DNA of 64,000 nucleotides, taken from contig OZ038464.1 of NCBI GenBank assembly GCA_964036295.1, forward strand, positions 4,095,501 to 4,159,500, written 5' to 3'. Source of the stretch: Plumapathes pennacea. Taxonomy: Eukaryota; Cnidaria; Anthozoa; Antipatharia; Myriopathidae. Both the position numbers and the translations under genes were made by a program. Below, in pieces: positions 4,522 to 64,000 of this stretch. Position 1 is the first letter of the stretch. Every line of letters begins with the position of its first letter. The notes beneath the pieces were generated by a model that had not been told where the DNA came from, did not search any database, and saw only the letters and a program-made list of their open reading frames with translations.

Positions 4522-7500
4522 GTAGTAGTAGTAGTAGTATATTTCCTTCGAGTATATTGCATTGTATTTAAATTTATATTGTCTTTGAAAAGCCTCTTTG
4601 GGGAAAGTCAATAAAGTATGTATGTATGTATGTAGCTGCTGTTCCCCTGTTAAAAAGAAGACCTGGATAACGATTTATGGGCATGCACTTGTAATGCGCA
4701 CAACGCTCATTGCAGTCGTCTAAATCACGAAGGGACAACGACAGCTTTTAAAATTGAAAGAAGCGAGCGAAGACAGATTTTCATTCCATTAACTGAGGCC
4801 TGCTTCAAATGTCGAACTTCAGATTAGTCGAATACAATGCAAATGAGCTAATTAAAGCTCTCGTTTCAGCTAATTTACATTGTATTCGACTCATGTGAAA
4901 CTTAAAGTTTGAAGGTGACGTTACACGAGACGATTTTTAACGACAATTTGTCGCGCAACACCTACAATTTTGTAGCTAGCACTTTGGCTTTTACTCCAAA
5001 AACATGGTGAACCTTCGCCAAAGGCAAAATTTGGTGCAAATATTGCTATAATTGATAGTTTAGACGATTACTAGGCAAGAAGTATAGATAAAAAAAAAAA
5101 AAAAAAAAATCGTCAAATCGTCAAATCGTTAAATCGTCGTTACAAATGGACCCGTGTAACATCTCGGCTTGAAACAAGTCAATAGCACACACTGTAGAAC
5201 GGAAATAACCATTCAATGTATACTCACTCTGCAGGTCATCCGGCGCTATGAGATGATAGTTGAAACCGCGCTTGATGAGAATTCCCGAGAGCGGCTTCTT
5301 GTTTTCTGGCTTCTCTGCTGCTAGCTTGCCCATCACCTGCAACAAGAGAACCAGTCATGAAAACGTAGAGTGATGCGTTGCCTGAAAATAAAGTAGCATC
5401 TGATTTGAAGAGAACATTACAGCTAACGTTTTTCATACAAAAAAGTCTGCGTATAACTGTTGCATTTCTAGAGCTTTACACACATTTTATCCGTCCGCGT
5501 ACACACACCTTTGAAACGTCCCTCGCCTAGTATGCGCTCGTTCATCTACAAAATACTATGTTTAATCAGCTTTAAGATTAGAAAAATTGCTGGGATGATT
5601 CTGTGTGTTTAATACACTTTTTTTTCCATTTTAGGGAGCAATCAACGTGAACATACGCTGAATATATGCAAATCCACATCGTCATCTAACAGTGGCAGTG
5701 CGGTGTTTGCATGATAAGTACTAACATTGGTACTACGTGTTTCTGTGATGTTACGAGTTACTTTTGTTTTTGTTTTTTGTTTTTGTTAACTGTCTCAAGA
5801 TATAAAATACACATCACTACTAACAACTGTAATATGAGACAAGCCGCCACAAAAAAAACAAAACAAAAACAAAAACAAAAACAAAAACAAAAACAAAAAA
5901 AACCCAAAGGCACGAGAGCTCGTTACCTTGGCCATTTTCTCTCCCCTAAAGTAAAGCTCGACGTTTTGACAGTTCGGAGGATTATGAACGACAACTTGTG
6001 CCTCCTGCAGAACAAAAGAAAGTTCGTTAAGTTTTAACTTGAAAAGCAGACTATCATATCTAACAAAACTAAAACGGGATCAATGAGTAGTTGCAAAGAT
6101 AACACTCACAAGTTTTTAGTTGTCACCCTACGCTCGTAATTACATTATTTGTAGGTCTGTAGTAGACAGTAACATCTCACCGCATTGTCCTCGTATTCTC
6201 GGATCAAGGCTGCCTTCAGTCGACCCATCTCGTTTTGTTCTCCGTGCACAAGGACTATGTGAGGGGGCTTTAAGATTCTGATGAATTCACTGGTTTGTTC
6301 AAAATCGGTGTGCGCCGAAAAGGAGATATAGTCTGAGAAAAGAAAGGCCAAGCATAAGAACAAGCGGGTAGCAACATTATTGCCACAGTATTGTGGTTCC
6401 GAGTTGAACAAAAACAACAACAACAACAATAACAACACAAATTAAAGTAGCCCAAACAAACCATTCTGTGAATAAGCTTTACTTGGCTTTACCTATGGAA
6501 CACTTTCGTGGTATCTTTTGTCCCGTCATAGTGGTAATTTCTTCTGGCTCTGACATCAAGGTCTGCTCGAAGATAATGAAACCACGCGGTAAAAGAAAAA
6601 CATCACCACTGCAAGCTTTTGTCTTGGAATTCCTCAGATAAGTTCAGTTTAACAACAAGTATACAAAATGCAATGCACGACTGCTTCATAAAATGAAACA
6701 AAACACCGACGTTTACGGTGCAAAACTAAACAACGGCAAAGAGTTGATAAACGAAAGCAATAAAGCGGGAACCTATCAATTTTTGTAATACTGGTTGTGG
6801 CCTGCGTCTGTGCTGAAAAGTGTAGAATGTATCAAATTAAGGTTGACGATGAAAATTATCCAATCACAAAGCGAGAAACTGACGTGTTATTGTAAAATGA
6901 CGTTTCGAGCGTTTGCCCTTCTTCGCAGCACTTTCACCTCGTTTTTTTTTTTTGTTCTGACGAACTTTGGCAACGCACGGAAACATTGACCTTACTCTCA
7001 TACCTTGGCCAATGTTCCCTCGACACAGTAGCCTGCGATGATGACGCCGTTTCTTCGGTCACTGGACCACTGTTCAAACAGCTCGCGCGACAAACCACTC
7101 TGAAAGGGAAGGAAACACTCAAGAAAGTTTCAACAGCAAAATGTACAACTAAGGCAACTATTTGGCTTCACTGCTGTAGAAAAAGTGAACGTTATTATTT
7201 TATAAGTTTTTAGAGTTTTTAGAGTTTTTAGTTACTACATTTCTTTGCTTGACTGTAGCAGCCAAGGAGTGTAAGGGAGGATTTCAGGATTTTTCGTGTT
7301 CCTGAGAGCTAGATGAAAACATACGCGTTTTCCTGTTCTCGTGGTGTTTTGCGAGCTGTATTTTGGTATTACATTGGATGACGACTCAGGGCATCAAGAT
7401 CTTTCAGGAAGTGGCAAAAAAATCCATAATTACAAGTAACTTATCTTAGAAAAATATTTGTTTGCGTTTATTGTAATCAATACTGGAATTGCAGTGGAAA

Positions 7501-10500
7501 CCCTCGTAACTTTTTAAATTCCAAGAGCGGTCAAGCGGAAACCTCATCCAGTCGAATTATGTTGAAAAATGGTGATCTCTTGCTTGGCTTCAAGAACTTA
7601 ACACACATTGCTTAGGACAGGTTAATTTTTACCTGCATCATTCCCGGGCTGGCCATCACAACTGAGGGACCGATGTCATCAAACTGATCAATGCTCTAAA
7701 GAGTTAAGAGCCACACAACGAAATTAGTTTACTCACTGGGTTAAATGTGTGCTATTACAGATGCAAAAACATCCTCATACGTATATGAGTAGGTAACTGC
7801 AAAAGGCCAAAGGCAAGAACGTTATGATTAATATATTAATAAAGAAACGTTCATGGTAAACTCATGGAACGAGAGAATGAAACAAGGACTGAGAGGATGG
7901 ATAGACAAAAAGGACAAGCAAAAAGATGTTGTTTTCCAAGAACACCAGGGTGGAAGATGGAGAAGAGGAAGTAGAGAAAGTTTGACAAATATTTGAAGAG
8001 GAACACAGAGAAAAAAAAACAACAACAAAAAAAAAAAAAACAAAAAACAAAAAACAAAAAAACAGAAACCTTACCTTTAGGTTTGATACATGCTTGAAAA
8101 CAAACGGATTGGAAATTGCTATCTGGAGAGGAAGAGACGATGCAAAAGGTTTCCAAAGTAAATCACTTAAACGTATGCTAAACACTTCACATGTACAGCT
8201 TTTTCGAATCGAAATTAATGGACTTTTCAAGGTCAATTATAATTTTTTCAAGACTTAAAATTACTTGTTGGTGCCAGTAAAATGTTTAGCATTCTTTGAA
8301 GAATTTCAATTTATTATAAGCATCTCTTCAAATGACTGCATCTGAACAGCTTCGCTTCCCCCCAGCCCCTCCCCCCTCGTGCTCTTCCCTGAAAGGCGAG
8401 TGATTTGCCCAGCGCAGGGTCTGAATTGCCAGTAGATTCATTCGGAGTTGTTTGAAACTGTTCTGATCGATTACTACTATTTAGAAATTAACAAACTTCT
8501 CAAGGACTGCTGTCTAAACTCAAGGACTTTTCAAGGCATCGTACAAATTCAAGGACTTATCACGACAAGCAGATTCAAAGGCTTCAGTTTCAACATTGTA
8601 CGAAATCTGATTTCAACGGTTACCTGTTTCTTGATTTTATCATTCATGGCGTTTACGTATGTTTGGAAAACTGCAATAAAACACAGAATTACAAATAATG
8701 CAGTGCAAGATCCTGAAAACGGTTCATATAACTTAGAAGACAATATTCTCCATACAGACGACATATAAGCCACTATGGCAATCATGCGCAGTTCGAGTGG
8801 CTAAGATGTTTTGATAATAAAACTTGGCGGACAAAGTAGAGGATTGCTTCGTTGGCCATAATGCAATTTTTAGAAACAAAACATAAGTCAGCAGAAAGGT
8901 TTACTTGAGGGACACTCGTTTATGCGGACAGTAAAACGTACTATTTGCCACTGCACATGACTGTGAAAGTGGAATATATAACTGTCAAATTAACCCTTTC
9001 ACTCCCAAGAGTGATCAACTTCAGTTTTCTCTTTTCAGTCTCCCACCAGAGATATATCATACAGTATGGAGAATTTGGCATTTGATACCTTGCTCAAACG
9101 ACAGCTGATTAAATCATGAATTATCTTTTCATCACTCATACATTTTCTTATTTCGTGGTTGGGAGAATTTGTATTTTGAGCTTGTGGTAACTTACCTGAC
9201 ATGCACTTTTTGGCCAGCTGTGATGCATAGTAGATAGGAATGTCATGAAGCTCCGGGTGATTTTGCCAATATTCATCTACACAAAGAGAACAAACAGACA
9301 AGTTCTTGCTTTTGTGTACGACATAGAGCGTACAATATCACCCTAAATTTGTTGTTAATGGGGCCCTCTCAGTCCTTTGCGCGCCGAAATCCTTGGTTCC
9401 GCCATTTTTGGGGCCCCCGAAAGTCGGAGGATGAATAGCAATCCACTTCCATCCGACTTGTTTAAGGAGAAAATTAGTTTCTTTTGATCTAAAAGTGCTA
9501 CTAACCTATTTTTCTTTTGATTAATTAAGTCATTTCGTTTTGGGAACCAAATTCAGCCTTGGATTTTCAAGGTGTAAACAAAAATACGGAAAAGGCTGAG
9601 AGGGCTCCTTTAATATGCAAGCTGAACGTCTGAACATCCGTCAAGCGTTAGCTCCTCGTCCTTTACTACGTTATGCACTGACGAAGGACGCCGCGGAAAT
9701 ACGTTCTTTACGTCACTTCCGTTGGTCAGCGTTCATCGCCATGGCTATCTAACTTATCATAATTCGAGGTAATTCGAGTTCCATTGAATTTATGTTTGCA
9801 CGACAGGGATATTTTCCTTGCACTGAACGCACCTAAAATAAGCAGCAGTTCCTGAGCTCTTCCCAGAGCAAACACCGGAATAAGACAGCGACCTCCTCTG
9901 TTAACGATGTCGTGCACAGTGTCTGAGAAGCAAAATGGAATGGAGAATATCACATTTTCCAAAAACAAAAAACAAAAACAAAAACAAAAACAAAAACAAA
10001 AACAAAACAAAAACAAAAACAAACAAAACAAAACAAAACAAAAATGACGTCAGTGGCCTGATAGTGGTATATGATGCCTGATTGGTGTTTACGTGTATAT
10101 ACGTGTTTATAGCGAGGACATAAGGTGGAGAGTCAAGTGACTGTGCCATTGACACTGCACAAAGTAGCCTTGCTTCTATAATTTTCATGGTAACTCATCA
10201 GACGATACTTTGCAGAACGACAGTACAATATTCGGTGACTGGTAGCGGTAGGAAAATTAAAATTTATTTTCAGAAAGATCTTGGGCTTGTGGGTGCCTAG
10301 CCTGTTCCAGACTCTCATGATACTGAAACGGCTGCAAAAGTCTTTCTTCCTCCCGCCTCCGCCCCAGTCTGTTGTGCGCCACTTTTGCAGCCGTTTCTAT
10401 ATCACGAGAGCCTGTAACAGGTTAGTGGAAGCCAAACTAGAATATCCACTTACAAAAGACAACTATATAAATAAAGTAATGTTAAATGAACTAAATGTTG

Positions 10501-21741: not shown

Positions 21742-24700
21742 TTACTTGCTGTCTTTCTTCATTGCACCTTTAACTTCCAACAGCATGTCCTTCATCTCAT
21801 CAATTTGAGACTCAAATTGAGATTTTAGATCGCGAATCTCCCCCTTCACACCTTGAATCTCTCCTTTTACTCCTTTAAGGATGGATTGGTCAAATGTGCC
21901 CATCTGCAACAGACAAATACATAAACAAAGTCGGACTGGCGTTTTAGACGCCGCTCCTCGCCAACCTCGTTCCCAGGCTGGGGCTGGATTGAGAGAAGAG
22001 CCTGGGAACTAGGTTGATTCCTCGCATACACCAAACGTAATGCAAATTAGCAAAAGAAAGCATTGTTTGAGACAAATGAACCGGGCGTTAAATGTCTTCG
22101 TCCGTCAATGACGATTTGTATCATTGTATTGTTACCTCAAGTTTGATAGTAATGGCGACAAACGCTGACCAATGGAAGTGGCGTCAAGAACGAATTTCTG
22201 CGGTGCCGTCAATACATTTTTTATAAAATAACTATGATACTACGCGCGTTCTAATTGGTTGAAAAGCCGGTAATTATTTAAAATCAACATAACACGCGTT
22301 TCCTGAAGTGGCTCGTGATTTTGAACTTTTTCTCGTGTTCTGAAAAGTCCTTGAATTTGTGTAGCGCCTTGGAAAGCCCTCAATTTTGACAACAGTCCTA
22401 GAAAAATTAGAATGTATTGAATGAACCGAGAAATAAATCAATTGGCAATTTGATTCTGCAGTCGACAAGTCAAGTGCCATTCACGGAACAGCATTGGGGA
22501 AAACTGTTCAGAAACAAGGCATCACTGCAGCAGGAAATGCACTTCAATGCTAGAACAAGTAAATACGGGCTAACCGCTTTATTTTTAATGAAAGATCTGT
22601 GCCGTACGAAGAACTATTAGAGAAACTGGGTCTGACGACTCTTCAAAATCAAAGACTTTTAAAGATAGTTTGCACTGTCTTTAAGACATTGAATCATCCA
22701 CAAGCTCCAAGCGGTATCCAGGATCTCATAAACAAAAGAAACACAAAGTACAACCTCAGGGAAATGAAATACTGAACCAACCCAAAGTCAACACTACTAC
22801 GTACGGACTACGATCATGGAGGCACACAGCCCCAAAATTCTAGAACACGCTACCAAATCAATTAAGAGTACTAAACACTTACAAAAGTTCAAAAGTCATC
22901 TAAGAAAGTTAGAGTTGACGAAGTATAGTAATCTGGGCAATTTCCTTAAGCATTGTGGATAGCGGTTCGTTCTATAAGAAGTAATTCTAGGCATTTCAAC
23001 CAAAACTGAAATTCTTTTAAGAACGCTAAACGTTCTATTTGGACCAACCAGGTCATTTTAAGTCCTCGAAAATATTAAATTGGCCTTGAGAAGCCCTTGA
23101 AGTTCGATTTGAAAAATCTGTACGAACCCTGATTTACAAAGGAGAATTAAACGACCGATATGTCGAACCTACCACAACCCACCGTATGGGTGACGAGACA
23201 TGCCAACTTTGGAATGTACTCACGCTAAACTTTACTTTGATTCCTGCGCTGTGCATTGCAATGCAAGGATAAAGTTGTTCACCACTGTTTTTGATACAGG
23301 TTTTTCCGACTTCTCTTCTATTCAGACTGAAAGTTACAGGAACGTAGCCATCTTTCTCTTCATGGAAAAGAACTTTGCAGCCGACAAGGTCTCCACTGTA
23401 TCCCAATGCGCCTAGATTAAAAGATAATGCAAGTAAGTTCACCAAAGATTAAAGGTTCAATTACTTGGAACAATATCGAATTGATATAGTATATTTAAAT
23501 GTTAGTTCAAACGAACGACGTAAGCATAACTGTATACATTCTATTGTCTGTCGCCTCTGTTTCATGCCTAAATGAGAACCTTGACGCGCAAGTATAAATA
23601 ATGCGTGAAGATAAGTCAATGTTCACACTTTTTTCTGACGAAGGGCGGACGCCCAAAACTTATGGGGTGTTTACATGATACCGTATGACTTATATTGCGG
23701 TACGAGATATGTTTTTGTATTACGTTTACATCGGAGGCCGTTGTACCAGAATGACGAAGATGCTTATGTGTGCCTAATAATGCTCGTCGGATATTTCGTT
23801 TCGACCCCCAAGAGGTACTAAAATTGGCGTGGCTCGAGCGCATTTTGACCCCTAAAAGTTACCAATAAAAACATACCAATATAATAAAATTCATTCGACT
23901 GACACCCGACCCCTAAACGGTAGCACGTCACATAAAATTGTCAGCATTTGATCTTGAGCACCCTAAACGGTACCAAAACCCGTGATTTTGACCCCTAAAC
24001 GGTACGAAGGGCATCCCCGTTCTTTTTTATATGGAGTTACCCCCACCCCCCGACATCTCACGTTTACCACTACGACAACACAGTCCAAAATTAGTTCTCA
24101 CAGGGACTATCATTCAATTGCGTGTCAAAAGATCAAACCTGGCAGCTCTCTGCCAAAGTTTCTGTGTTTTTCCTCAAAAATCCTTCCGTCGTCAAGGTGA
24201 TATCCTACAGATTTGTCAAGCCAGCCTGGAAATACCGTGAAGTCTTGATGGTCGGACAGAACAATTCCAACTCCCAACATCCGGTCACTGCCACTTTCTT
24301 CAATTAACACCTTCGAGAACAAACACACTAACTATTAGACTTTTGTAATAGTATGCAAAACCGAAGTTATTCTAATGTCCCCCTCTAGTTCCTGTAGGAA
24401 AGCGAAACATGAAACCTTAGAAAATAGAAGTAAAATAATCATGTACTTTTACCTGAAACATCGGAGATGCCCGAGTTAATGGTTTTTTATAGCGAACATT
24501 GCAGTCTTCGTCCACCTCATCTCTAAATGTCAGCGTGTTTCCCTCAATTTTAATACCGTGATGGCCCGTCCACAGCTATATTCCAAACAAAACGTACAAT
24601 TTTTAAAAATACGCAAAACTGTTATTATATCAGAGGTGTAAAGGCCACAGCAAACGAAAACAGCATGCACATCATCTCATCGGCAAACAGTGTGTACTGA

Positions 24701-38084: not shown

Positions 38085-39668
38085 ATCATTCGAGTGAGCT
38101 TGCATTTCACAAATTATTTGGCATAAAATGTGTTGGGAAGCGCGCGTTGTAGCGAAAACGAGCTGCCATATTCACACAGGTGGGAAAAACTGCGCATGAG
38201 CAGATACTTATTTGTAGGCAGTTATTTGCAAGTGACGTAGTAGTCTCTCGGCCAATCAAAAGAGCGATAAAAAGTATCGAATGATAAAGATGTTTATTTA
38301 TATATATTATTTATTATTGTTGTATATTTTTATGAAAATATACAGGAAGCAATGTCTGAGTATTGTAGTACTTGCCTTTAGCGTTTTCTCTGAAAACACC
38401 TGTCGCATCATGCCCAGAGTCTGAAAATTGAAAGATTGATGGCAGGTTTGACTTTGAAACTAGAACAACATTCACGATAATTTTAATTTTATATTGTTTT
38501 TCCGCATCTGTGTATTTGTAAAATTTGTGCGCCAATTGTACTCAGGTGTATTGTTTTGTATGTGAGAGTACGATCGATGCTCAGCTTTTAGGCCCCGTTT
38601 ACACTTGAAAACTGTTTCGGATACAAAGTATCCGGATACAAAGTTCCCACTTTCGATTCCGGATTCGTTTTCTCTCCGGATTCACTAAAAATGACCCCAG
38701 ATTCACAAAAACTAGTGTAAACGCTTTCACGAATCCGGAAACAAATGCCTCGAATCCGGATAAATTCGCTCTAGTGTAAACGGGGCCTTAGTAAGTTGTC
38801 ATATACCTTAATATGTCTAGTTTCTACTTTGTTATTAAAGTTTTCGTATTTGCTTTTAGCTGCATGGTCAAATCTATGTTATGCAGTATAACTCATCACA
38901 AACTGATAATATTTATCAACGAACGAGTCAGAGATTTCGTCAACACGAGAAGATAGATTTCGTATATCCAAGCGGCCATGTAGTGTTGTCTATTATATAA
39001 ATATCGATAAGATATCCAGAATAAAGACGTATCTCGCAGCCTTAATTTCCTTTTAGAACTGACTGTCTTCAAAAATCGCGTGTACAGTGAACGTATGATT
39101 TCACTTGTAAAAATACCGAAAATGTCAGTTTTTAAAACTTGAGAAATACTGGTATTTTATCGATATAATAACTTACGTTTACGGACCAAGAATACATGTG
39201 GCTATTAATGAATATTAAAATATATTCTTTAACTGGTCCACTGGTGTGCAATATGTCTACTAATAAAGCTTAGCCGTGGAACACCAATTGCTTTAGACTG
39301 CGAGCAGTCCCTCCAGTTTTCATCTACGATCGTACTGCAAGAGCTCAGTCGCGAGCGCGAAAGAGTATGGCGTGCGGGAAGTGTGGCCTCCCCTCTCCCC
39401 CCCCCCCCCGTCCCCTGCCTCGCCCCACTTTCCGTGCCCCTTACTCTTCCGCGCTCGCGACTGGGCTCATGCAATACAATCTTAGAGGGAAAATAAGGGA
39501 TTTCTCGCTACAATTGCTTTTACCTTCACGCAACAATTCCTCGATGAGGCTTGAACCCATGGGTATATTACTTTCCTCTGAGTATTGGCTTTGCTTATCT
39601 TCTTCGACCTCTTTTGTTAATGCTACAATGTCGTCACAAGACTGCTTTTCAGTTAGTTGAAAAGCCAT
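21742..39668 (-). CDS. TRPC-like cation channel with C-terminal SPRY domain, 16 exons
   Basis: Predicted six-helix membrane cation channel. Exons: 39524-39668, 38376-38420, 36257-36384, 34673-34867, 33994-34183, 32047-32287, 30550-30900, 28297-28489, 27447-27585, 26708-26760, 26140-26218, 25180-25301, 24453-24575, 24139-24310, 23224-23411, 21742-21903; 2526 nt, 841 residues, phases consistent throughout. The N-terminus (1-171) is helical and has no ankyrin repeats, unlike TRPC proteins. FLAHPVVYNLIHKKWYG (172-188) resembles the TRPC pre-S1 segment. Helices: S1 about 202-224, S2 about 246-268, S3 about 275-292 or 318-335, S4/S5 region 365-420, S6 about 464-490. The pore-loop segment SLFGIAET (443-450) resembles TRPC. 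A TRP-box-like EWCFKRC and PIPVPLNIV follow S6. Then a helical linker (561-627), a SPRY domain (about 635-788, including VGIVL, PGW, SVGYH, LDDGRIF, GDLVGC and LYPCIAMHS) and a 53-residue C-terminal coiled coil. Intron 2 uses a GC donor. The start ATG opens exon 1; N-terminal exons are less certain than exons 5-16. Family-level subtype is not settled. Confidence 0.85.
22228..22400. mobile_element. MITE end with TATAAAATAACTATGATACT terminus
   Basis: The terminus TTATAAAATAACTATGATAC followed by TACGCGCGTTCTAATTGGTT recurs at 24929, at 58935 (diverged) and reverse-complemented at 63700-63765, which defines one dispersed family. It lies in intron 15 of the TRP-SPRY gene. Confidence 0.5.
22500..22980 (+). 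mobile_element. LINE fragment (end of reverse transcriptase), degenerate
   Basis: Plus-strand translation reads RSVPYEELLEKLGLTTLQNQ, then a stretch typical of the RT-distal region of CR1/L2-like LINEs, with stops and frameshifts. It lies in intron 15 of the TRP-SPRY gene. The duplicated copy lacks it: flanks AAAACTGTTCAGA and ACGTTCTATTTAGACCAACC are joined near 59400-59475. Confidence 0.6.
24929..25150. mobile_element. Palindromic MITE in TRP-SPRY intron 12
   Basis: TTATAAAATAACTATGATAC at the left, then TAATATAGCCTCATCTA and its complement TAGATGAGGCTATATTA close to each other. It is absent at the matching place (60970-60985) of the duplicated copy. Confidence 0.55.
25377..25800 (-). pseudogene. 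LINE ORF fragment upstream of RT domain, copy 1
   Basis: Minus-strand sequence in intron 11 of the TRP-SPRY gene. It encodes the linker between endonuclease and reverse transcriptase of a LINE (for example RKNPNNTGYI-like and NTVDKMTLAKECNYC-like pieces) but is broken by frameshifts. The homologous fragment at 61967-62389 is in the same intron of the second gene, so the insertion preceded the duplication. Confidence 0.55.
27655..27995. mobile_element. TIR element, TTTTCGGATGACTGTCGAAA ends
   Basis: TTTTCGGATGACTGTCGAAA at 27666-27685 is mirrored by CGACAGTCATCCGAAAACCG near 27957. Inner repeats include CCAAAACCAAAGTAATCACA. A one-ended relative is at 42575-42790. It lies in intron 8 of the TRP-SPRY gene. 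Confidence 0.6.
31054..31320. mobile_element. Inverted-repeat remnant related to Penelope-element termini
   Basis: GGTTGGTTGTGATCGTCCTG to GAAGTCATCTTCAGAGTCAA is repeated in inverse order to about 31320. The same arms flank the Penelope fragment at 54765-55370; the interior is much shorter here. It lies in intron 6 of the TRP-SPRY gene. Confidence 0.6.
32340..32735 (+). mobile_element. Helitron-like repeat, 3' part
   Basis: Shares long stretches with 45490-45903, for example ATCGACTTTGCTTACTG and CCGTGCGACAAA. It ends near the family's shared GGTATATCTGCGATTATT motif. It lies in intron 5 of the TRP-SPRY gene. Confidence 0.5.
33060..33654 (-). mobile_element. Helitron-like repeat, 5' part, with basic-repeat ORF
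   Basis: On the minus strand it starts TCCCCGAGCGAAGCGAGGG right after an A. It contains a 33182-33448 reading frame with REARLQKRREQARARRNRE-type basic repeats, the same as at 49314-49721. A (CA)n run (33516-33556) is inserted near the start. It lies in intron 5 of the TRP-SPRY gene. Confidence 0.5.
35080..35400 (-). pseudogene. LINE reverse transcriptase fragment with FADD motif
   Basis: Minus-strand translation starts LFADDTNLFHFNKDINELD, containing the RT catalytic FADD box. A frameshift and stops follow, then NCKFFGVIID, which is typical of the RT thumb border. It is cut at 35400 by another repeat and lies in intron 3 of the TRP-SPRY gene. Confidence 0.7.
35401..36157 (-). mobile_element. 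Repeat of the Helitron-like family, minus strand
   Basis: The end near 36150 reads GCGAGGGTGATAATCACGAC on the minus strand, as other 5' ends do. The segment at 35425-35480 is the reverse complement of 43320-43400 (GAACGGAAGTGATTTTGCA). It appears inserted in, or joined to, the LINE fragment at 35400. Confidence 0.45.
37671..37780 (+). mobile_element. tRNA-like SINE head
   Basis: GACTTGGTGGCCGAGTGGTC (A box) and GGTCGTGGGTTCAATATTC (B box) are spaced as in a tRNA-Ser/Leu-type gene with a long variable region, but the acceptor ends do not pair. It lies in intron 2 of the TRP-SPRY gene. Confidence 0.5.
37925..38090. mobile_element. Palindromic MITE
   Basis: ATCAATTATTTGCCGATGCC and its near complement GGCAAATAATTGATCTGCGA form the centre. 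Outer arms include CAATTATTGGACGAGGTTGA against its mirror. It lies in TRP-SPRY intron 2. Confidence 0.6.
38590..38790. mobile_element. MITE with AGGCCCCGTTTACACT ends
   Basis: AGGCCCCGTTTACACTTGAA at the left is mirrored by CTAGTGTAAACGGGGCCTTA at the right. Such ends are common in hAT-like MITEs; the class is inferred. It lies in intron 1 of the TRP-SPRY gene. Confidence 0.65.
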
Positions 39669-40440
39669 TACGAGGACACTAGCAGTCCTGCAAATAAAAC
39701 GTTTTATTTATTCTTATGGTGCTTTTTGTCAAAATGGCCGATTTTGGCCAAAAACTGAAGACTCTTGAAACTTTTAGGAAACTTTCCTAAAACAACACAA
39801 CAACAACAGAAAGAAAAAAAAACCACGAGTAAAAATTCCGCCGTAAGCCGGTTGTTTTCAGAATCCAAAGAATGTGAGTGATGACGCGAAGCCGTACGGG
39901 CGTGCTGACTTGAGCTCCGTAGTTTCCATTGAATTATGACCTTGTGAAAACGTATTTGAATCCCTTGCTATATCAATCTACGGTTTTGACGATTTGGTTC
40001 AGCTTGTGGAAATTTCACTGGTGTTTCTGTGTACTTCATTTTGCTGGATTCTGGCCTAACGGAAAAATCCCTGAGCGCTCGTGAAACCGTAGTAGGCGAC
40101 ATAAGGTTGTCATGGTAAAACGGTTTTTTTGTTTCAAGCGACTTCCGCGCGTGCTGAACATCTGCACGAGCTTTGGAAGCTGCACGCTCACTGCTATGGC
40201 GGCTACCGGACTCCTACTATTCCTGCTCGTTTCAACCTCTACAATCTCATCACCAAGTCTGAAGTTACACAAGCCTAGTTACCAAACACCCGCAAATTGC
40301 CTGCGGTTAGTGCGGTTTACAGGACCACTTCCACACGGTCCAATTAGCTGGAGGGTGCAGTAGGACCATTATAATTGGAACCATATTGCACAGAAGAGGC
40401 CGCGGTAAAACGTTTGCTTCAAGCAGGATCATCGTGAAGA
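39669..40440. other. Upstream flank of the TRP-SPRY gene
   Basis: No TATA box was recognised. A plus-strand reading frame from 40196 starts MAATGLLLFLLVSTSTISS, which looks like a signal peptide, but it ends after about 55 codons without an evident downstream exon. It may be chance or a first exon of an unseen gene. Confidence 0.25.
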
Positions 40441-43428: not shown

Positions 43429-44428
43429 GCCTCACAACGAAAAGACGCCTCATAATGAAAAGTTGCCTCATAACGAAAAGTCGCCTCATAATGAAAAGTT
43501 GCCTCATAATGAAAAGTCGCCTCATAATGAAAAGTCGCCTCATAACGAAATATCGCCTCATAATGAAAAGTCGCCTCATAATGAAAAGTCGCCTTATAAC
43601 GAAAAGTCGCCTTATAATGAAAAGTTGCCTCATAATGAAAAGTCGCCTCATAATGAAAAGTCGCCTCATAATGAAAAGTTGCCTCATAACGAAAAGTCGC
43701 CTCATAATGAAAAGTTGCCCCATAACGAAATATCGCCTCATAATGAAAAGTTGCCTCATAATGAAAAGTCGCCTCATAATGGAAAGTCGCCTTATAACGA
43801 AAAGTGGCCTTATAATGAAAAGTTGCCTCATAATGAAAAGTTGCCTCATAATGAAGAGTCGCCTCATAATGAAGAGTCGCCTCATAATGAAAAGTCGCCT
43901 CATAATGAAAAGTCGCCTCATAATGGAAAGTGGCCTTATAACGAAAAGTGGCCTTATAATGAAAAGTTGCCTCATAATGAAAAGTCGCCTCATAATGAAA
44001 AGTTGCCTTATAATGAAAAGTTGCCTCATAATGAAGAGTCGCTTCATAATGAAGAGTCGCCTCATAATGAAAAGTCGCCTCATAATGAAAAGTTGCCTCA
44101 TAATGAAGAGTCGCCTCATAATGAAGAGTCGCCTCATAATGAAAAGTCGCCTTATAATGAAAAGTCGCCTCATAATGAAGAGTCGCCTCATAATGAAAAG
44201 TTGCCTTATAATGAAAAGTTGCCTCATAATGAAGAGTCGCCTCATAATGAAAAGTCGCCTTCTAATGAAAGTCGCCTCATAATGAAAAGTCGCCTCATAA
44301 TGAAAAGTTGCCTCATAATGAAAGGTCGCCTCATAATGAAAAGTTGCCTCATAATGAAGAGTCGCCTCATAATGAAAAGTCGCCTCATAATGAAAAGTTG
44401 CCTCATAATGAAGAGTCGCCTCATAATG
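43429..44428. repeat. 18-bp minisatellite array, about 55 copies
   Basis: Unit CCTCATAATGAAAAGTCG with variants (GTTG for GTCG, CTTATAAC, GAAGAG). As 18 is a multiple of 3 and the unit has no stop in several frames, long open frames arise on both strands: hexapeptides PHNEKS and LIMKSR on plus and MRRLFI on minus. These are taken as repeat by-products and not genes. Confidence 0.95.
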
Positions 44429-49108: not shown

Positions 49109-50722
49109 TCCCCGAACGAAGTGAGGGAAATACTCACGACGCTAATGCAGTAGTATTATCGCCTTATCGGAGACTCCAAGCCTGTCGCCATCTCGAAATC
49201 TAATGTTCGTCTGTCAGTCAGTCAGTCAGTCAGTCAAGGTGTGGACAACACTTCATGTAAAGACTAACGGAAAACTATTCTACTCCTTATAAGGCAGTTC
49301 GTTCCACACGAAAATGAATTTGAAAACTGGAAAAATTGAAACAGAACGGTCTCGCGAAGCTCGTCTTCAAAAGAGAAGGGAACAGGCACGGGCAAGGCGA
49401 GATCGTGAAACGATCGAACAGCGCCAAAAGACGACAAACATGTTTTTCCGACAGCATCATGAACGGAAGCGTGCCGATCAAGAAACGGCTCCGCAAAGGG
49501 AACAGCGCTTGAAAGCAAATCGGGAGCTTCAGACGCCGTTTTGCGTTAAACTCAGATACTTATTCAGAAAGGACAAGCAACAAAGGTCAGTCAGTGGAAA
49601 TCTAACAATCACCGTGACGAATATATTCTATCCCGTATCTTGTAACTCGATCACTTCAAGAGGTTACCGGTCGTTTCGCCGACGAGTCGGTTCGCTAATG
49701 TGTCAAAGTCGATTCGCTTAACAATTTGTATCACACAAAAATCGTATTATCGAAACATCTGCGTAGAAGAAGTAGTGAATGGTGAGGTCGACAAGCGAAC
49801 AAAACTCGGGTCATATTTCATGTAAATATATTCTTTACTGCTTTGCCTTACATAACATCAAGCCGCTTTGCCTTTACATCAAATAACACGCTACAGTCGT
49901 CTTGATTAACGCATAGAAAGCCTCTTTGCCATACATCTACGCGCGCGCACTACATACTGTTACTTTCCGCAAACACGTCAGTCGACAAGAATGTATTAAA
50001 ATCTGTATGCTGATCATTTCCCTCGAAGTATTGTTTTAATACGCTTCTGTTGCCAGTTTCGGGTACCGTATTCGTTCAGAGCAATCGGAACTTGGAGTCT
50101 TGAATGATTTAGTCAGATGTCTTATTTTTTCTTTCAAGACTAAAACTGTAATAAATGCTGTAAACAGAGACGCGGTGATTGCAGCGCGAATCGTTCACAA
50201 GCCCTATGAAGTATGACTACGTCTGAAGCCCGTGTATAATTTGACTTTAACTGTTCAAGTTTTGCTTTGATTTTGGGAGAAATCATTAAATATGCATGTC
50301 TGAGTCTAGTGCTTGCAGTCCAGAGTAAAAAAAAGATCGCACAGGAAGCCTATCTAATTGTACTGCCTATGAATTCAAAATTGGAAAATCAGTGTTCCTT
50401 TTTTCCCGTACTACGGCGGCCGACCAACTTCAAAATTTAAGTATTAAATTTTGAGAACGTGCTTAGCAGACTGTATGAATTAATTTGACTCGCCGACCGT
50501 GGGAATTACGTACGGCGTCACGCAATCGACTCTTTTTTCAACGCAAAAGTACCGCAAAACACACCATTCTTTTTCTCCTTCCTTTGCGTGTAGCACTTGA
50601 GTTCGAAGAAAAGATTGAGTCAACATTTCGGTAAAACAAAGGCTACTCTTGTTGGGAGTTACCAAAGTAAAAGTCCCATCAATGGCAGAGTGAGGGGGTA
50701 TCTGCGATTATCGTATTTCTAG
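49109..50722 (+). mobile_element. Helitron-like repeat, near complete copy, 1.6 kb
   Basis: Begins TCCCCGAACGAAGTGAGGG and ends GATTATCGTATTTCTAG before a T, without terminal inverted repeats. The 3' 193 bp equal 1-191 of the window and the 5' 500 bp match 33060-33654 on minus. A GTCA tandem (49207-49235) follows the 5' end. It carries the basic-repeat ORF 49314-49721. TC start, CTAG end and lack of TIRs suggest Helitron, but no helicase is present, so it would be non-autonomous. Confidence 0.5.
49314..49721 (+). CDS. Basic-repeat protein of the Helitron-like element
   Basis: A 135-codon frame whose first 80 residues are Arg/Glu/Gln-rich, in units of about 23 residues (REARLQKRREQARARRDRE, then ETIEQRQ, ETAPQREQRLKANRE). 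The pattern resembles STPR-type DNA-binding repeats often found beside cnidarian and other invertebrate transposons; that link is from memory and unproven. A broken relative is at 33182-33448 (minus). The last 50 residues are probably not real coding sequence. Confidence 0.4.
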   Translation: MNLKTGKIETERSREARLQKRREQARARRDRETIEQRQKTTNMFFRQHHERKRADQETAPQREQRLKANRELQTPFCVKLRYLFRKDKQQRSVSGNLTITVTNIFYPVSCNSITSRGYRSFRRRVGSLMCQSRFA

Positions 50723-58263: not shown

Positions 58264-61200
58264 TTACTTGCTGTCTTTCTTCAATGCACTTTTAATTTCC
58301 AACAGCATGTCCTTCATCTCATCAATTTGAGACTCAATTTGAGACTTTAGATTGCGAATCTCCCCTTTTACTCCTTTAAGGATGGATTGGTCAAATGCAC
58401 CCATCTGCAACAGACAAATACATAAAAAAAAGTCAGACTGGCGTTTCAGACGCCGCTCCTCGCCAACCTCGTTCCCAGGCTGGGGCTTGGAGATAAAAGA
58501 GCCTGGGAGCGAGGTTGGCTCCTTGCATGCGCCAAACATAATGCAAATGAGCAAAAGCCATTGTTTGAGATAATTTGCATCGAATGAACCGGGCTTCAAA
58601 TCTCGTCCGTCTATAACGATTTGTATCTCTGTATTTTTACCTCGAGTTGGATAGTAATGACACAAACGCTGACCAGTAGAAATGACGTCAAGAACGAGTC
58701 TCGATGCCTTTAATTGCTATAAAGATGACATCATAAAGCACTTAGTCCCTTGTTTTCAAACAAAAAAGTTCATTCAACTGACACCCTACCCCTAAACGGT
58801 ACACGTCACATTAAAATGTCAGCGTTTGATGGTGAGCACCCTAAGCGGTATCAAAACCCGACGAGCATCCCCGTCCTTTTTTTATATGGGGAGTCCCCCC
58901 TTCCCGGGGTTTCTGCCGTGCTGTCTATTTATTGTAATAATATAATCATACGCGCGTTCTAATTGGTTAAAAAAAAAAACACCAAGTACAAATACATGGT
59001 TTTGTGAAGCCGGTCACGATACCGTTTAGTCATTATATTTAACATCAATTTAATGCGCGTTTCCCGAAGCGGTTCGTGATTTTGAACTATTTCTTGTGTC
59101 CTCATAACATCCCGCGTGTTTATATAGAAGTAAAAAGACATGGAAATTCGTGTTATATTGCTTAAATAAAATATTTGTTTCTATATATTTGAATCAATGT
59201 TGGCAGGGCTCGCACAATCTTGAAAAGCCCTTTAATTTGACTTCTTGTCCTGAAAAGTCCTTGAATTTGAATTTGTATGAAAAGTACTTGAAAAAAATGC
59301 CTGAATTTCTAAGTAAAAGGTCGATTAGAATGGATTGATTGGCAATTTGACCCTGCAGTCGGCAATTCAATTGCCTTTCACGGAACAGCATAGGGGAAAA
59401 CTGTTCAGATGCAGTCACTTTAAGGAGAATATTAAGAAAAGGAATTCTTTATAGAACGTTCTATTTAGACCAACCACGTAATTTTAAGTCCTTGAAAATT
59501 TTAAATTGGCCTTGAGAAGCCCTCGAAACCCTAGAATTTTGATTTGAAAAGGCTGCACGAACCCTGATTTACAAAGGAGAGTTAAACGTCCAATACCGAA
59601 TGGATGGCGAGACATGCCAACTTTGGAATATACTCACGCTAAACTTTACTTTGATCCCTGCGCTGTGCATTCCAATGCAAGGATAAAGATCTTCACCATT
59701 TCTCTCGATTTTGGTTCGTCCGACTTCTCTTCTATTCAGACTGAAAATTACAGGAACAAAGCCATTTTCCTCTTCTTGGAAAAGAACTTTGCAGCCGACA
59801 AGGTCTCCACTGTATCCCAATGCGTCTAGATCAAGAGATGATGCAAGTAAGTTCACCAAAGATTAAAGGTTCAAAGGTTACTTGGACTCCCACATAAATA
59901 GGACGGGGTGCTCGTCGGATATTTTCGTTTTGAGCCCCAAGAGGTACTAAAATTGGCGTGGCTCGAGCGTATTTTTACCCCTAAAAGTTACATACAAACA
60001 TACCAATACAGTAAAAGTCCATTCGACTGACACCCGACCCCTAAACGGTACCACGTCACATAAAAGTGTCAGCATTTGATCTTGAGCACCCCCCTCCCTC
60101 CCCCCCCAACATCTCCCGTTTACCACTACGCCAACACAGTCCAAAATTAGTTTTCACACGGACTGTCATTCAATTGCGTGTCAAAAGATCAAACCTGGCA
60201 GCTCTCGGCCAAAGTTTCTGTGGTTTTTCTCATAAATCCTTCCATCATCAATGTGATATCCTACAGATTTGTCACACCAGCCAGGCTGTACGTCGATCTC
60301 TTGATGGTCGGACAGAACAATTCCAACTCCCAACAACCGGAACTTGCCACTTTCCTCAATTAACACCTTCCAGAACGAACACACTAACTATTAGACTTTT
60401 GCAAAAGTATGCAAAATCAAAGTTATTCTGATGTCCACCTCCAGTTTTTATAGGAAAACAAATTGAAACGTCAAGATATAAAAATAGAAATAATCATGTA
60501 CTTTTACCTGAAACATCGGAGATTCCCGAGTTAATGGTTTTTCATAGCGAACATTGCAAGCATCCACTTCATCTTCATATGTCAGCGTGTCTCCCTCAAT
60601 TTTGATACTTGGATGGCCCCTCCACAACTATAATCCAGATAAAACGTATGATATATAAAAATACGCGTAACTGTTGTTATATCAGAGCGTGTAAAGGCCG
60701 AACCCAGCATGTTGGGACAACACTGCCCAACATTGTGCACTGAATACTTCATGCGACAGTAAGAGTAGCAATTGCGATGCGTTTTCGCGTTTTGCATCGT
60801 CTATTTCATCGGGCTCATATTTGCGGAGCCCAACAGCACTATGATTTCGCGAAGAGTTTTTGGGTAAAACTGTTTGGCGATGTTGTCCTAACATGTCGCA
60901 ATCGTAGGCGAAGATCAAAATCGGCAAACGCAAACCATACACAAACACCCATGCACGTGTATATAATGTCTAATATAATGTAAAAGTGATATGGCACAAT
61001 GAGATATTACCTGTGCATCAAACGACTCTTCATCTGAGAACATTTGATGCATAATCAGGTTGATCATTCTCTGGTTCTCCACTGACTCGTGATGAATTTG
61101 ATTTATTGAATTTTCGAGTCGATCCATGCTTTCTGAAACATAGACGTTGATAATTAACTTTCTTCTCAAGATGTCAATTTTGCTTGTTTTGCCCATGCTA

Positions 61201-64000
61201 TGCGAAGTGTAACTGGGTTGGCAGAGTAAGTTTGCATAAAGTGCTAGGATATATTTTGATGAAATATTCACTGAATTTCAAAGGAAGTGTGCTGGTTTTA
61301 TTTCCACGGCAGATCGCCTTCTGGAGACCACGAGTGCAGCATCCATATCTGCATGGGCTGACTCATACTTTTGATAATATACACAGTAGTGATATCAGTC
61401 TTCATGACCCATCAAATATTTCCTCCCGCGCGTGATTGGTGGAATCGTGACATGTGACCGAACAACGTCCGCTCAGGAGCGAACGTTATCGGCGAATAAC
61501 CCCCGCCTGGCGAACTATCGCTGTTTATTGACAATATCCGAGCACAGACTGCCGAGGAGGACATCGATTCAATGGTCGAAAAAGCAGTTCCAGAAAGCAA
61601 CAAAAAGCCTCACAGTCCCCGCGCCATTATTTGCGCTGCGAGAGGAAATATTTGAGAGATAATGAAGACAATAAACTACTTTTGACTTCGGAAATATGCA
61701 CGGATAATTGCCCGAAGATATTATCTGTTCCGAGAAGTGAACAGTCGCTCTCGGGTAACTGTTCGCTTCTCGGAACAGATAATATCTTCGGACAATTATC
61801 CGTGCATATTTCCGAAGCCAAAAATAGTTTATTGTTTATACAATTATTTGGTTTCTTGTGATCGTCATCTTTTAGAATCGGAGTCACTTCTTCCAAGCAG
61901 GTTTCACTCGTAGGGGCTTTTGATGCCTTTTTCAATTTAGCGGCATTTCACTCGTCTTAGCGAGAACTACTGTGTTGCGGGAAGATAACACCTTGGGACA
62001 AGAACTAAATTGTGCTGATTGACGTGCAGTAGTTGCATTCCTTGGCTAGTGTCATTTTGTCGACAGTATTTTGCACAACTGTCGGAAAGAAATGATTGAA
62101 GTGAGTCGTTTGTGAGCGTTTTGTAATCTTTACTAAATGTTCTTCGATTAACTGATTTTTGGGGAATACATGACCGTACAGCCGTCCGAATATAGCCTGT
62201 GTTGTTAGGATTTTTCCTGATTTGTTCTGCAACATGTTTATGTTGTGCTAGTCCTAATTCTCGTTTGATTTCCCGTTTGAAGTTCCTATAGCCGGTCCAT
62301 GCCAAACGACCATTAGTTCCCCTCGCTAACTTCCGCAACTCGATTATGGTTTTCATTGGCGCACGGATCTCACTATTGGCCAACTTCATTTTTTAACTTG
62401 TTTAAGAATGCATGAAGATCATGGATTTGATTGAGTAAAAAATGAAACCATGAAACGCATTTAGTTTTTCTTCACTACATAGAACTAACGTGTTATGAAA
62501 GAGAAATACAGCAAAATGGTTCAGTTTTTTTTTTCTTTTTTCAATTAAGTTACTGGAAATGGAAATAATATTAAACAGCCTGCATGATCTTATGTATTTT
62601 TACACAGCCATGCGATCATGTTTTTCAGTGGTAACATGAGATTTATCCATGTGAAAGATAGATTTACCTATTTGTTGTATTTGGATATTATCATAGAAAT
62701 GTTTCCATTTTTAACATACCTCTAATTGGAAATGAGGCGCCGTATTTTGAACGGTACTCTTCCTCTAACCAATCCATCAGTTCTTTCATGGATTCAGTCT
62801 GTCGGGGTAAAAAGCATACGTAGGAATATAATAAGTTTGTGTGTGTACGTATGTACGCATACACGCTACGTCTATATTTAAGCAATATAACACGAGTTTC
62901 CATGTCTATGTACTCTTATATAAACACGCGGGATGTTGGGAGAACACGAGAAAAAGTTCAAAATCACAAGCCGCTTCGGCGAGTGATTTTGAACTTTTTC
63001 GAGTGTTCTCACAACATCCCAAGTGTTTATATAAGAGTACAAAAACATGGAAACTCGTGTCATATTGCTTTTATAAAATAACAAAGCTTTTATTACCTGA
63101 TAGAACTTTATATTGAAAATGATCAAGTTCAAGATTCTCCCGAAAACCGTCAAAACGCACGCTCGTCCAATCGGAAAGTCTGTTTCACGGCACTTGGCTC
63201 AAGTCAGTCCATGAATGAAAACGGAACACCACTCGCGTTCACTTGAAAGAGTTGACAGGCTGCTAAATGAAGATGAATTTCACAAGAATTGTGTCGGATA
63301 TTAGTACCGCTGTTTGTCAAGAATTCAAAAGAACCGGCGAGAATGTTCTGAGCCGTCAGGTTTCAACTTTCAGGACAACGGTGTCACTCGACGTAAACAT
63401 GTCTGCACAACAACACTATCCTGCCGAAGAAGGTAGTTTGTACATTTGTTTGCTTTACTTGAGCATTACATGAGCTCTGCCGGACGACAGTCAACTCCAT
63501 TGAATCGACTCAACGGCTTTTGTGCCACCGAGCCGACAGCCGACCCTGCTTCACTAATTGCACATGATTTGCACACGGCTTCGGCTTCACTATTTGCTCT
63601 AATAGCCCACTGCAGTTTTATAACACATGAATCTTTGAAGTAGGGGACGACTCGCAGTCTTTTTATTTCAGAATTCGTCATTTCCATGTCTCTGTACTTA
63701 TTTATAAAATGGTTTTTTAACCAATCAGAGCGCGCGTAGTATCATGGCTATTTTATAATTATCTACATTATAATGTCTATGGTAGTTGGCTGTGGGAAAC
63801 TCTTACCGCAATTCATTTGATAATTGTATATATGCTGATATATATATTTAATGCTCAAAGTTGTGTACTAATATAAACAGTTGTTTGCAAACATTCTGAG
63901 CCCTCAGTATATATAATCAGTATATACAAATATTGAGTGCATTCTGGGAAGATGTATATTAACCCTTTCACTCCTAAGAGTGATCAAGTTCAGTTTTCTC
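58264..64000 (-). CDS. Second TRP-SPRY gene, 3' part (exons 11-16), 5' end outside window
   Basis: Paralogue of the 21742-39668 gene. Exons: 62720-62798, 61011-61132, 60508-60627, 60195-60366, 59638-59825, 58264-58404; phases and splice sites match the first gene, no stops. It encodes the helical linker (TESMKELMDWLEEEYRSKYG), the SPRY domain (LLGVGIVLSDHQEI, PGWCDKSVGYH, DDGRIY, GYSGDLVGC, LYPCIGMHS) and the C-terminal coil (MGAFDQSILKGVKGEI). It differs from copy 1 at many residues; SPRY exon 13 is one codon shorter and the last exon 7 codons shorter. The equivalents of exons 1-10, including the channel, would lie beyond 64000; whether they exist cannot be seen. Confidence 0.8.
61150..61910. 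mobile_element. Long inverted-repeat element in intron 11 of the second TRP gene
   Basis: Contains a near-perfect palindrome, 61668-61834, with arms of about 78 bp (ACAATAAACTA ... CACGGATAATTGCCCGAAGA and the reverse). Copy 1 has no counterpart near 25340. Both strands encode similar short frames because of the symmetry; these are not genes. Confidence 0.65.
61967..62389 (-). pseudogene. LINE ORF fragment upstream of RT domain, copy 2
   Basis: Minus-strand frame starting MKLANSEIRAPMKTIIELRK and including KREIKRELGLAQHKHVAEQI and NPNNTGYIRTAVRS, the linker between endonuclease and RT of a LINE. The reading frame shifts after KDYKTLTND. It is the partner of 25377-25800. Confidence 0.6.
62879..63765. 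mobile_element. Fold-back element and MITE end, upstream of exon 11 of the second TRP gene
   Basis: 62879-63070 is an inverted repeat: AATATAACACGAGTTTCCAT against ATGGAAACTCGTGTCATATT. 63700-63765 ends with CGCGCGTAGTATCATGGCTA and TTTATAATTA, the reverse of the 22228-type terminus. The reading frame at 63267-63473 (MKMNFTRIVSDISTAVCQEF) may belong to the insert. Copy 1 lacks the whole segment near 26270. Confidence 0.5.

Follow-up and report, generated by a model that had tools for sequence, protein, structure and literature searches.

The window, a 64,000-nucleotide stretch of contig C3 (C3:4095501-4159500 of a 290 Mb assembly in 24 contigs), very probably carries a gene from a multi-gene family of TRP channels that are closest to TRPC. 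The predicted polypeptide continues after the TRP box into a SPRY domain resembling that of SPRYD3 and a tail patterned in heptads. As read from the predicted exons, the group I TRP core, the SPRY domain and the tail lie in one frame and are conserved across copies. Copies were collected by exon-by-exon tblastn over C3:4095501-4320000 and C3:6720001-6750000. With the window gene counted as P1, five further copies (P2-P6) with the same exon order were obtained.

Gene model and the channel half

The gene model was rebuilt and comprises 15 exons on the minus strand, from 39668 down to 21745 (Table 1). The ATG begins at 39668 and the stop codon occupies 21745-21747. All 14 introns are GT-AG, the exon phases agree, and the predicted product has 816 residues. 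An earlier note on this DNA had placed a TRP-SPRY gene here, with an exon chain continuous in phase from the channel into the SPRY domain; both points were borne out on the minus strand, and the coordinates agree within three bases. Its figures of 16 exons and 841 residues are superseded by those of the rebuilt model. An acceptor-like AG lies just upstream of exon 1, which could then begin at 39687. This acceptor is present in P1-P4 and suggests a 5' leader exon. A 21-bp tandem unit is found at 21834-21875, inside the span of exon 15.

Table 1. Exons of the window gene and of copy P3, with positions in the window
Feature	Position	Strand	Evidence
Exon 1: start codon and acidic N-terminus	39524..39668	-	gene model
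Exon 2: N-terminal cytosolic segment	36257..36384	-	gene model
Exon 3: helices before pre-S1	34673..34867	-	gene model, alignment to the matching TRPC4 stretch
Exon 4: pre-S1 helix with fingerprint Trp, then hydrophobic segment	33994..34183	-	gene model, TRPC4 alignment, fingerprint
Exon 5: S1-S2 region	32047..32287	-	gene model, TRPC4 alignment, fingerprint
Exon 6: S3, S4 and S5, with the Gly of the S4-S5 linker	30550..30900	-	gene model, TRPC4 alignment, fingerprint, genome matches
Exon 7: pore helix, LFG filter, S6	28297..28489	-	gene model, TRPC4 alignment, fingerprint
Exon 8: TRP box (EW) and IPVPLN segment	27447..27585	-	gene model, TRPC4 alignment, fingerprint
Exon 9: frame-keeping micro-exon, least certain exon	27311..27336	-	gene model, copy comparison
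Exon 10: linker	26140..26218	-	gene model, tblastn of copies
Exon 11: linker before SPRY	25180..25301	-	gene model, tblastn of copies
Exon 12: SPRY start	24453..24575	-	gene model, SPRYD3 match
Exon 13: SPRY middle, with variable stretch HQDFTVFPGWLD	24139..24310	-	gene model, SPRYD3 match, copy variation
Exon 14: SPRY end	23224..23411	-	gene model, SPRYD3 match
Exon 15: heptad-patterned tail and stop codon	21745..21903	-	gene model
P3, exons 10-15	58270..62789 (C3:4153770-4158289)	-	tblastn; remaining exons beyond the window end

In a search against solved structures, residues 72-533 of the window protein, a stretch that starts ahead of pre-S1 and ends beyond the TRP box, matched TRPC4 at 1.6e-24, and for the whole protein TRPC4 was followed by TRPC6, TRPC3 and TRPC5. 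TRPM-type structures scored below TRPC, with a TRPM2-like channel of Nematostella (6co7) at 3.8e-15 and TRPM7 at 2.8e-14. When the transmembrane part was searched alone, TRPC3 led at 9.5e-18. Pfam Ion_trans was matched at 1.1e-7 with 31.7 bits, above its 25-bit cut-off; the NCBIfam trp model gave 45.7 bits, far below its cut-off of 498.75. The TRP fingerprint consists of 12 residues, of which at least 9 are present in 95% of TRPs (PMC9242649, in excerpt). With positions carried by hand from the TRPC4 alignment, the window gene has 10/12 and P3-P6 have 11/12; the two mismatches of the window gene, L to M and I to V, are both in S6. The Trp of the TRP box after S6 is present (W488).

Neither ankyrin repeats nor TRP_2 (PF08344) were found in the window protein in Pfam searches at E up to 1, and the channel was not filed as TRPC. 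Hidden ankyrin exons upstream were considered and rejected. A typed ankyrin consensus searched against the C3 stretches used for the copies, one of 224.5 kb and another of 30 kb at 6.72 Mb, returned one match, at E 3.3, and the upstream similarity among copies spans all three frames, often with stops, as in non-coding duplicates. By its fingerprint residues the window channel is a group I TRP, and among solved TRP structures it is closest to TRPC.

SPRY domain, copies and linkage

A 169-residue C-terminal piece of the window protein matched human SPRYD3 (2yyo) at 2.8e-19 over piece residues 5-163, and the same piece matched RanBP9/10 at about 1e-5. Pfam SPRY was matched at residues 643-766 with 1.6e-4 and 22.2 bits, below the cut-off of 26.3, and the C-terminal part alone still fell short at 24.7 bits. 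Three of the four divergent copies score above the cut-off (P4, 30.1; P5, 27.0; P6, 28.4 bits); P3 is below it at 24.0 bits. In the window protein, Ion_trans is therefore above its Pfam cut-off and SPRY is not, yet SPRY is above it in P4, P5 and P6. The tail, read by eye, has hydrophobic residues spaced by 3-4 over about 37 residues. No SPRYD3 orthologue stood out in the genome.

The window segment 18075-52998 (~35 kb, gene included) is duplicated 80 kb away at C3:4192357-4228685 with 96-99% identity, as a recent segmental copy or an assembly duplicate. Exon 1 of P5 was not found by exon-by-exon tblastn in the fetched C3 stretches; exon 1 of P6 lies outside the searched stretch, with a match at C3:6712543. 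No stop codons occur in P2-P6 over 737-814 aligned codons each, the codons being taken from exon matches only. Wherever flanks could be aligned, acceptors are AG and donors GT, except at the exon 9 donor. Length differences among the aligned exons are multiples of three; the exception is exon 3 of P6 (C3:6722661-6722856), where one extra base gives a +1 shift, reflecting a pseudogene or a sequence error. Exon 9 gave a tblastn match only in P1 and P2. In P3-P6 it was found at the DNA level, where it extends to an AG/GT donor with a length of 89-116 bases and the frame kept. The window gene and its twin P2 no longer have this donor in its original form, and the frame-keeping choice there is a micro-exon of 26 bases. 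Exon 9 is the weak point of the gene model, since it has a donor that is not shared with the four divergent copies. Behind P5, an extra cassette of exons 11-15 (linker, SPRY, tail; C3:4275783-4278954) has no channel exons and no stop in 252 aligned codons.

Exon by exon, the channel part matches at least 109 places in the genome and the SPRY-to-tail part at least 91. For the linkage test, 33 channel rows, intended to represent each locus once or a few times, were taken from the matches listed, together with 64 SPRY-exon rows. Among these, the pore exon was matched at 28 loci of the 290 Mb assembly, and 25 of them are followed on the same strand by SPRY-exon matches, of which the closest lies 3.0-11.2 kb downstream. 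The 25 loci are distributed over C3 (14), C4 (4), C6 (4) and C2 (3) with identities of 35-91%, and those at 35-43% pore identity keep both halves. Because the same exon chain recurs at 25 loci, it is not a product of chance. Viewed from the SPRY side, 60 of the 64 rows lie 3-17 kb behind a channel match. Two rows 37-39 kb behind C3:3978484 may be a separate module. The remaining two form an unlinked exon pair at C6:22479751-22480900 (C6:22.48 Mb, L051), SPRYD3-like at 1.6e-5, with no channel match nearby among the channel-part matches listed. At C3:3766106, where only S6 to the TRP box was matched, a SPRY match also follows.

Among the matches listed, no SPRY was found downstream of three pore loci (C6:6.90, C6:14.72 and C12:3.41 Mb), which are distant single-frame channel genes of 23-27% identity with open frames of 572-629 residues, or behind an S6 match at C11:12.90 Mb that lies amid TRP_2 matches. 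The 13 TRP_2 matches in the genome are on C11, at C4:4.47 and at C1:0.25 Mb, none of them in the TRP-SPRY clusters. C11:11.94-12.92 Mb alone holds 11 of the 13 (8 of the 10 above the cut-off) and seems to be a cluster of ordinary TRPC-type genes. Ordinary TRPC genes thus seem to exist apart from the TRP-SPRY genes.

The earlier description of a TRPC-like channel with a SPRY domain after the pore is upheld by the gene model, by the solved-structure relatives of both halves and by the exon chain kept in the paralogues. Against the reading of one family of TRP-SPRY polypeptides stand the SPRY modules without channel exons of their own, behind P5 and at C6:22.48 Mb. The sub-cut-off Pfam SPRY scores of the window gene and P3, the weak NCBIfam trp score, the P6 shift and the three SPRY-less loci were also counted against it.

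Selection on the two halves

dN/dS was pooled over P1, P3, P4, P5 and P6, with the near-identical twin P2 left out. In the N-terminus the pooled value was 0.50; it was lower in exons 4-7, at 0.38 (bootstrap 0.28-0.50), and lowest, at 0.28, in exons 8-11, which encode the TRP box and linker (bootstrap 0.15-0.48). The SPRY domain gave 0.76 (bootstrap 0.53-1.16) and the tail 0.64 (bootstrap 0.26-1.64), both intervals reaching 1. By the same test, therefore, the channel and linker are clearly constrained and the SPRY domain weakly so. Pairwise values for the SPRY domain were at or above 1 for P1-P5 (1.04), P1-P6 (1.00) and P5-P6 (1.14); for the tail, P3-P5 gave 2.74 and P5-P6 1.49, on 37-40 codons. 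The case for diversifying selection on the SPRY domain is weak, as dS is lower there too (0.148 versus 0.22-0.27 in exons 1-11). Variable residues number 53/161 in the SPRY domain, 48/182 in exons 6-7 and 70/156 in the N-terminus. The densest variable SPRY stretch was equalled in 245/5000 shuffles for a length of 12 residues, 1233/5000 for 8 and 940/5000 for 16.

These values bear on three other accounts of the locus. A gene for a TRPC-like channel and an adjoining one for a SPRY protein might have been merged by eye, and the linker exons 9-11 are indeed short. However, the two halves are associated at 25 loci spread over four contigs, and purifying selection acts on exons 8-11. Exon lengths vary by threes except in P6 exon 3, and exon 9 is in frame in P3-P6. 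This account was rejected on linkage and selection; with exon order and nearly all splice sites that could be aligned also kept in the copies, and dN/dS at 0.28-0.50 in the N-terminus, channel and linker, separate genes are very unlikely and scarcely credible. Alternatively, a single gene may have two ends, such that a short isoform with the channel alone ends after exon 8-9 and a long one goes on into an exchangeable SPRY cassette. The duplicate cassette behind P5 and the changed exon 9 donor of the window gene point that way, but purifying selection runs across exons 8-11, and we regard alternative ends as unlikely. Finally, the copies, window gene included, could be recent tandem duplicates or pseudogenes of little function, as the 96-99% copy, the P6 frame shift and the altered exon 9 donor of the window gene and P2 might suggest. 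Since all six copies are free of stops over the aligned codons, dN/dS is below 1 in the channel and linker, and both halves persist at 35-43% pore identity, such decay is highly improbable.

Proposed role and relation to known channels

For the TRP-SPRY polypeptide, the following arrangement is proposed. Four subunits would assemble into a cation channel, with their four SPRY domains facing the cytosol and held by the tail helices. The SPRY domain would bind a protein partner, and this binding could gate the pore through the TRP helix, anchor the channel or set its turnover. We judge the likeliest mechanism to be control of gating or of placement by a partner bound to the SPRY domain, these two taken jointly having about even odds. 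Individual cell types may use differently tuned channels, as the number of divergent copies suggests. In a special case of the same arrangement, the SPRY domain would recruit a ubiquitin ligase, and the fusion would set turnover or location and not gating. SPRYD3, to which the window SPRY is closest, is reported as a specificity factor or adaptor of the MYCBP2 ligase (PMC12664034, in excerpt). The likeness to SPRYD3 is one of overall similarity only, and ligase recruitment, the best rival to partner-controlled gating or placement, is by this analogy a tentative possibility. It is distinctly unlikely, we believe, that the genes form a large, directly ligand-gated TRP family in which a diversified cytosolic SPRY domain senses proteins of host, symbiont or microbial origin. 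Such a sensor would turn recognition straight into calcium entry, with a logic like that of SPRY-bearing immune sensors.

What sets one TRP subfamily apart from another is largely the parts attached to it on the cytosolic side. The kinase domain of TRPM channels is C-terminal, and the SPRY domains of ryanodine receptors precede the pore. The window protein resembles TRPC over the stretch aligned to TRPC4 (TRPC3/6 structures also match) and in its fingerprint residues, and differs in having no ankyrin or TRP_2 match and in the SPRY domain and tail added after the TRP box. Its SPRY domain aligns with SPRYD3 over nearly the whole piece, but sits on a channel, whereas SPRYD3 is reported as a ligase adaptor (PMC12664034, in excerpt). 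Ryanodine receptors are likewise cation channels bearing SPRY domains, and the excerpt of PMC3194816 names SPRY only for them; they are giant, belong to another family and have several SPRY copies, in contrast to the one SPRYD3-like domain after a TRP pore found here. TRPM channels with NUDT9H share the plan of a TRP pore with an extra C-terminal domain (PMC13143021, in excerpt), as do those with a kinase. Their domain is a different one, and TRPM is the weaker match to the window protein (3.8e-15 versus 1.6e-24 for TRPC). The TRPC6-like family HOG0002487, expanded in Montipora corals, is likewise an expanded TRPC-like family (PMC9145168, in excerpt); as described, it differs in that the main text reporting it does not contain the word SPRY.

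The earlier note's statement that no standard TRP subfamily ends in a SPRY domain fits the ten subfamilies listed in the excerpt of PMC9242649. In the open-licence text searched, no paper pairing a SPRY domain, a TRP channel and a cnidarian was found, and no title or abstract on TRP channels and SPRY domains dealt with such a fusion. The word SPRY is absent from the main text of PMC9145168, PMC12314368, PMC10236652, PMC13143021, PMC9242649, PMC11526382 and PMC12503276. A TRP-SPRY fusion was thus not found described in the open-licence literature searched; it may have been catalogued earlier, and such genes may now carry the annotation "TRPC-like" only. A TRP core with a SPRY domain, kept at 25 or more loci, would add a kind outside the excerpted subfamily list of PMC9242649, namely a channel whose control input would be a definable protein partner.

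Several other features were observed around the gene. Exons of a metallo-beta-lactamase/beta-CASP RNA-processing enzyme, presumably CPSF3-like, lie on the minus strand at window 6145-10049 (RMMBL, 2.1e-13; Beta-Casp, 0.0047, below the cut-off); the third ORF there gave no match. An array of 55.6 copies of an 18-bp unit at window 43429-44428 comes with four open frames, 312-384 residues long, which overlap one another and occupy both strands. GFP, tried as a cnidarian marker, had no match, an absence that carries no weight because the controls gave none either. Elsewhere on the contig, a 1771-residue open frame is located at C3:3842311, and the 2.5 kb around its 5' side contain no long frame. 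Two similar arginine-rich ORFs, at window 33182-33478 (minus strand) and 49293-49721 (plus strand; no Pfam match), are possibly remnants of mobile elements.
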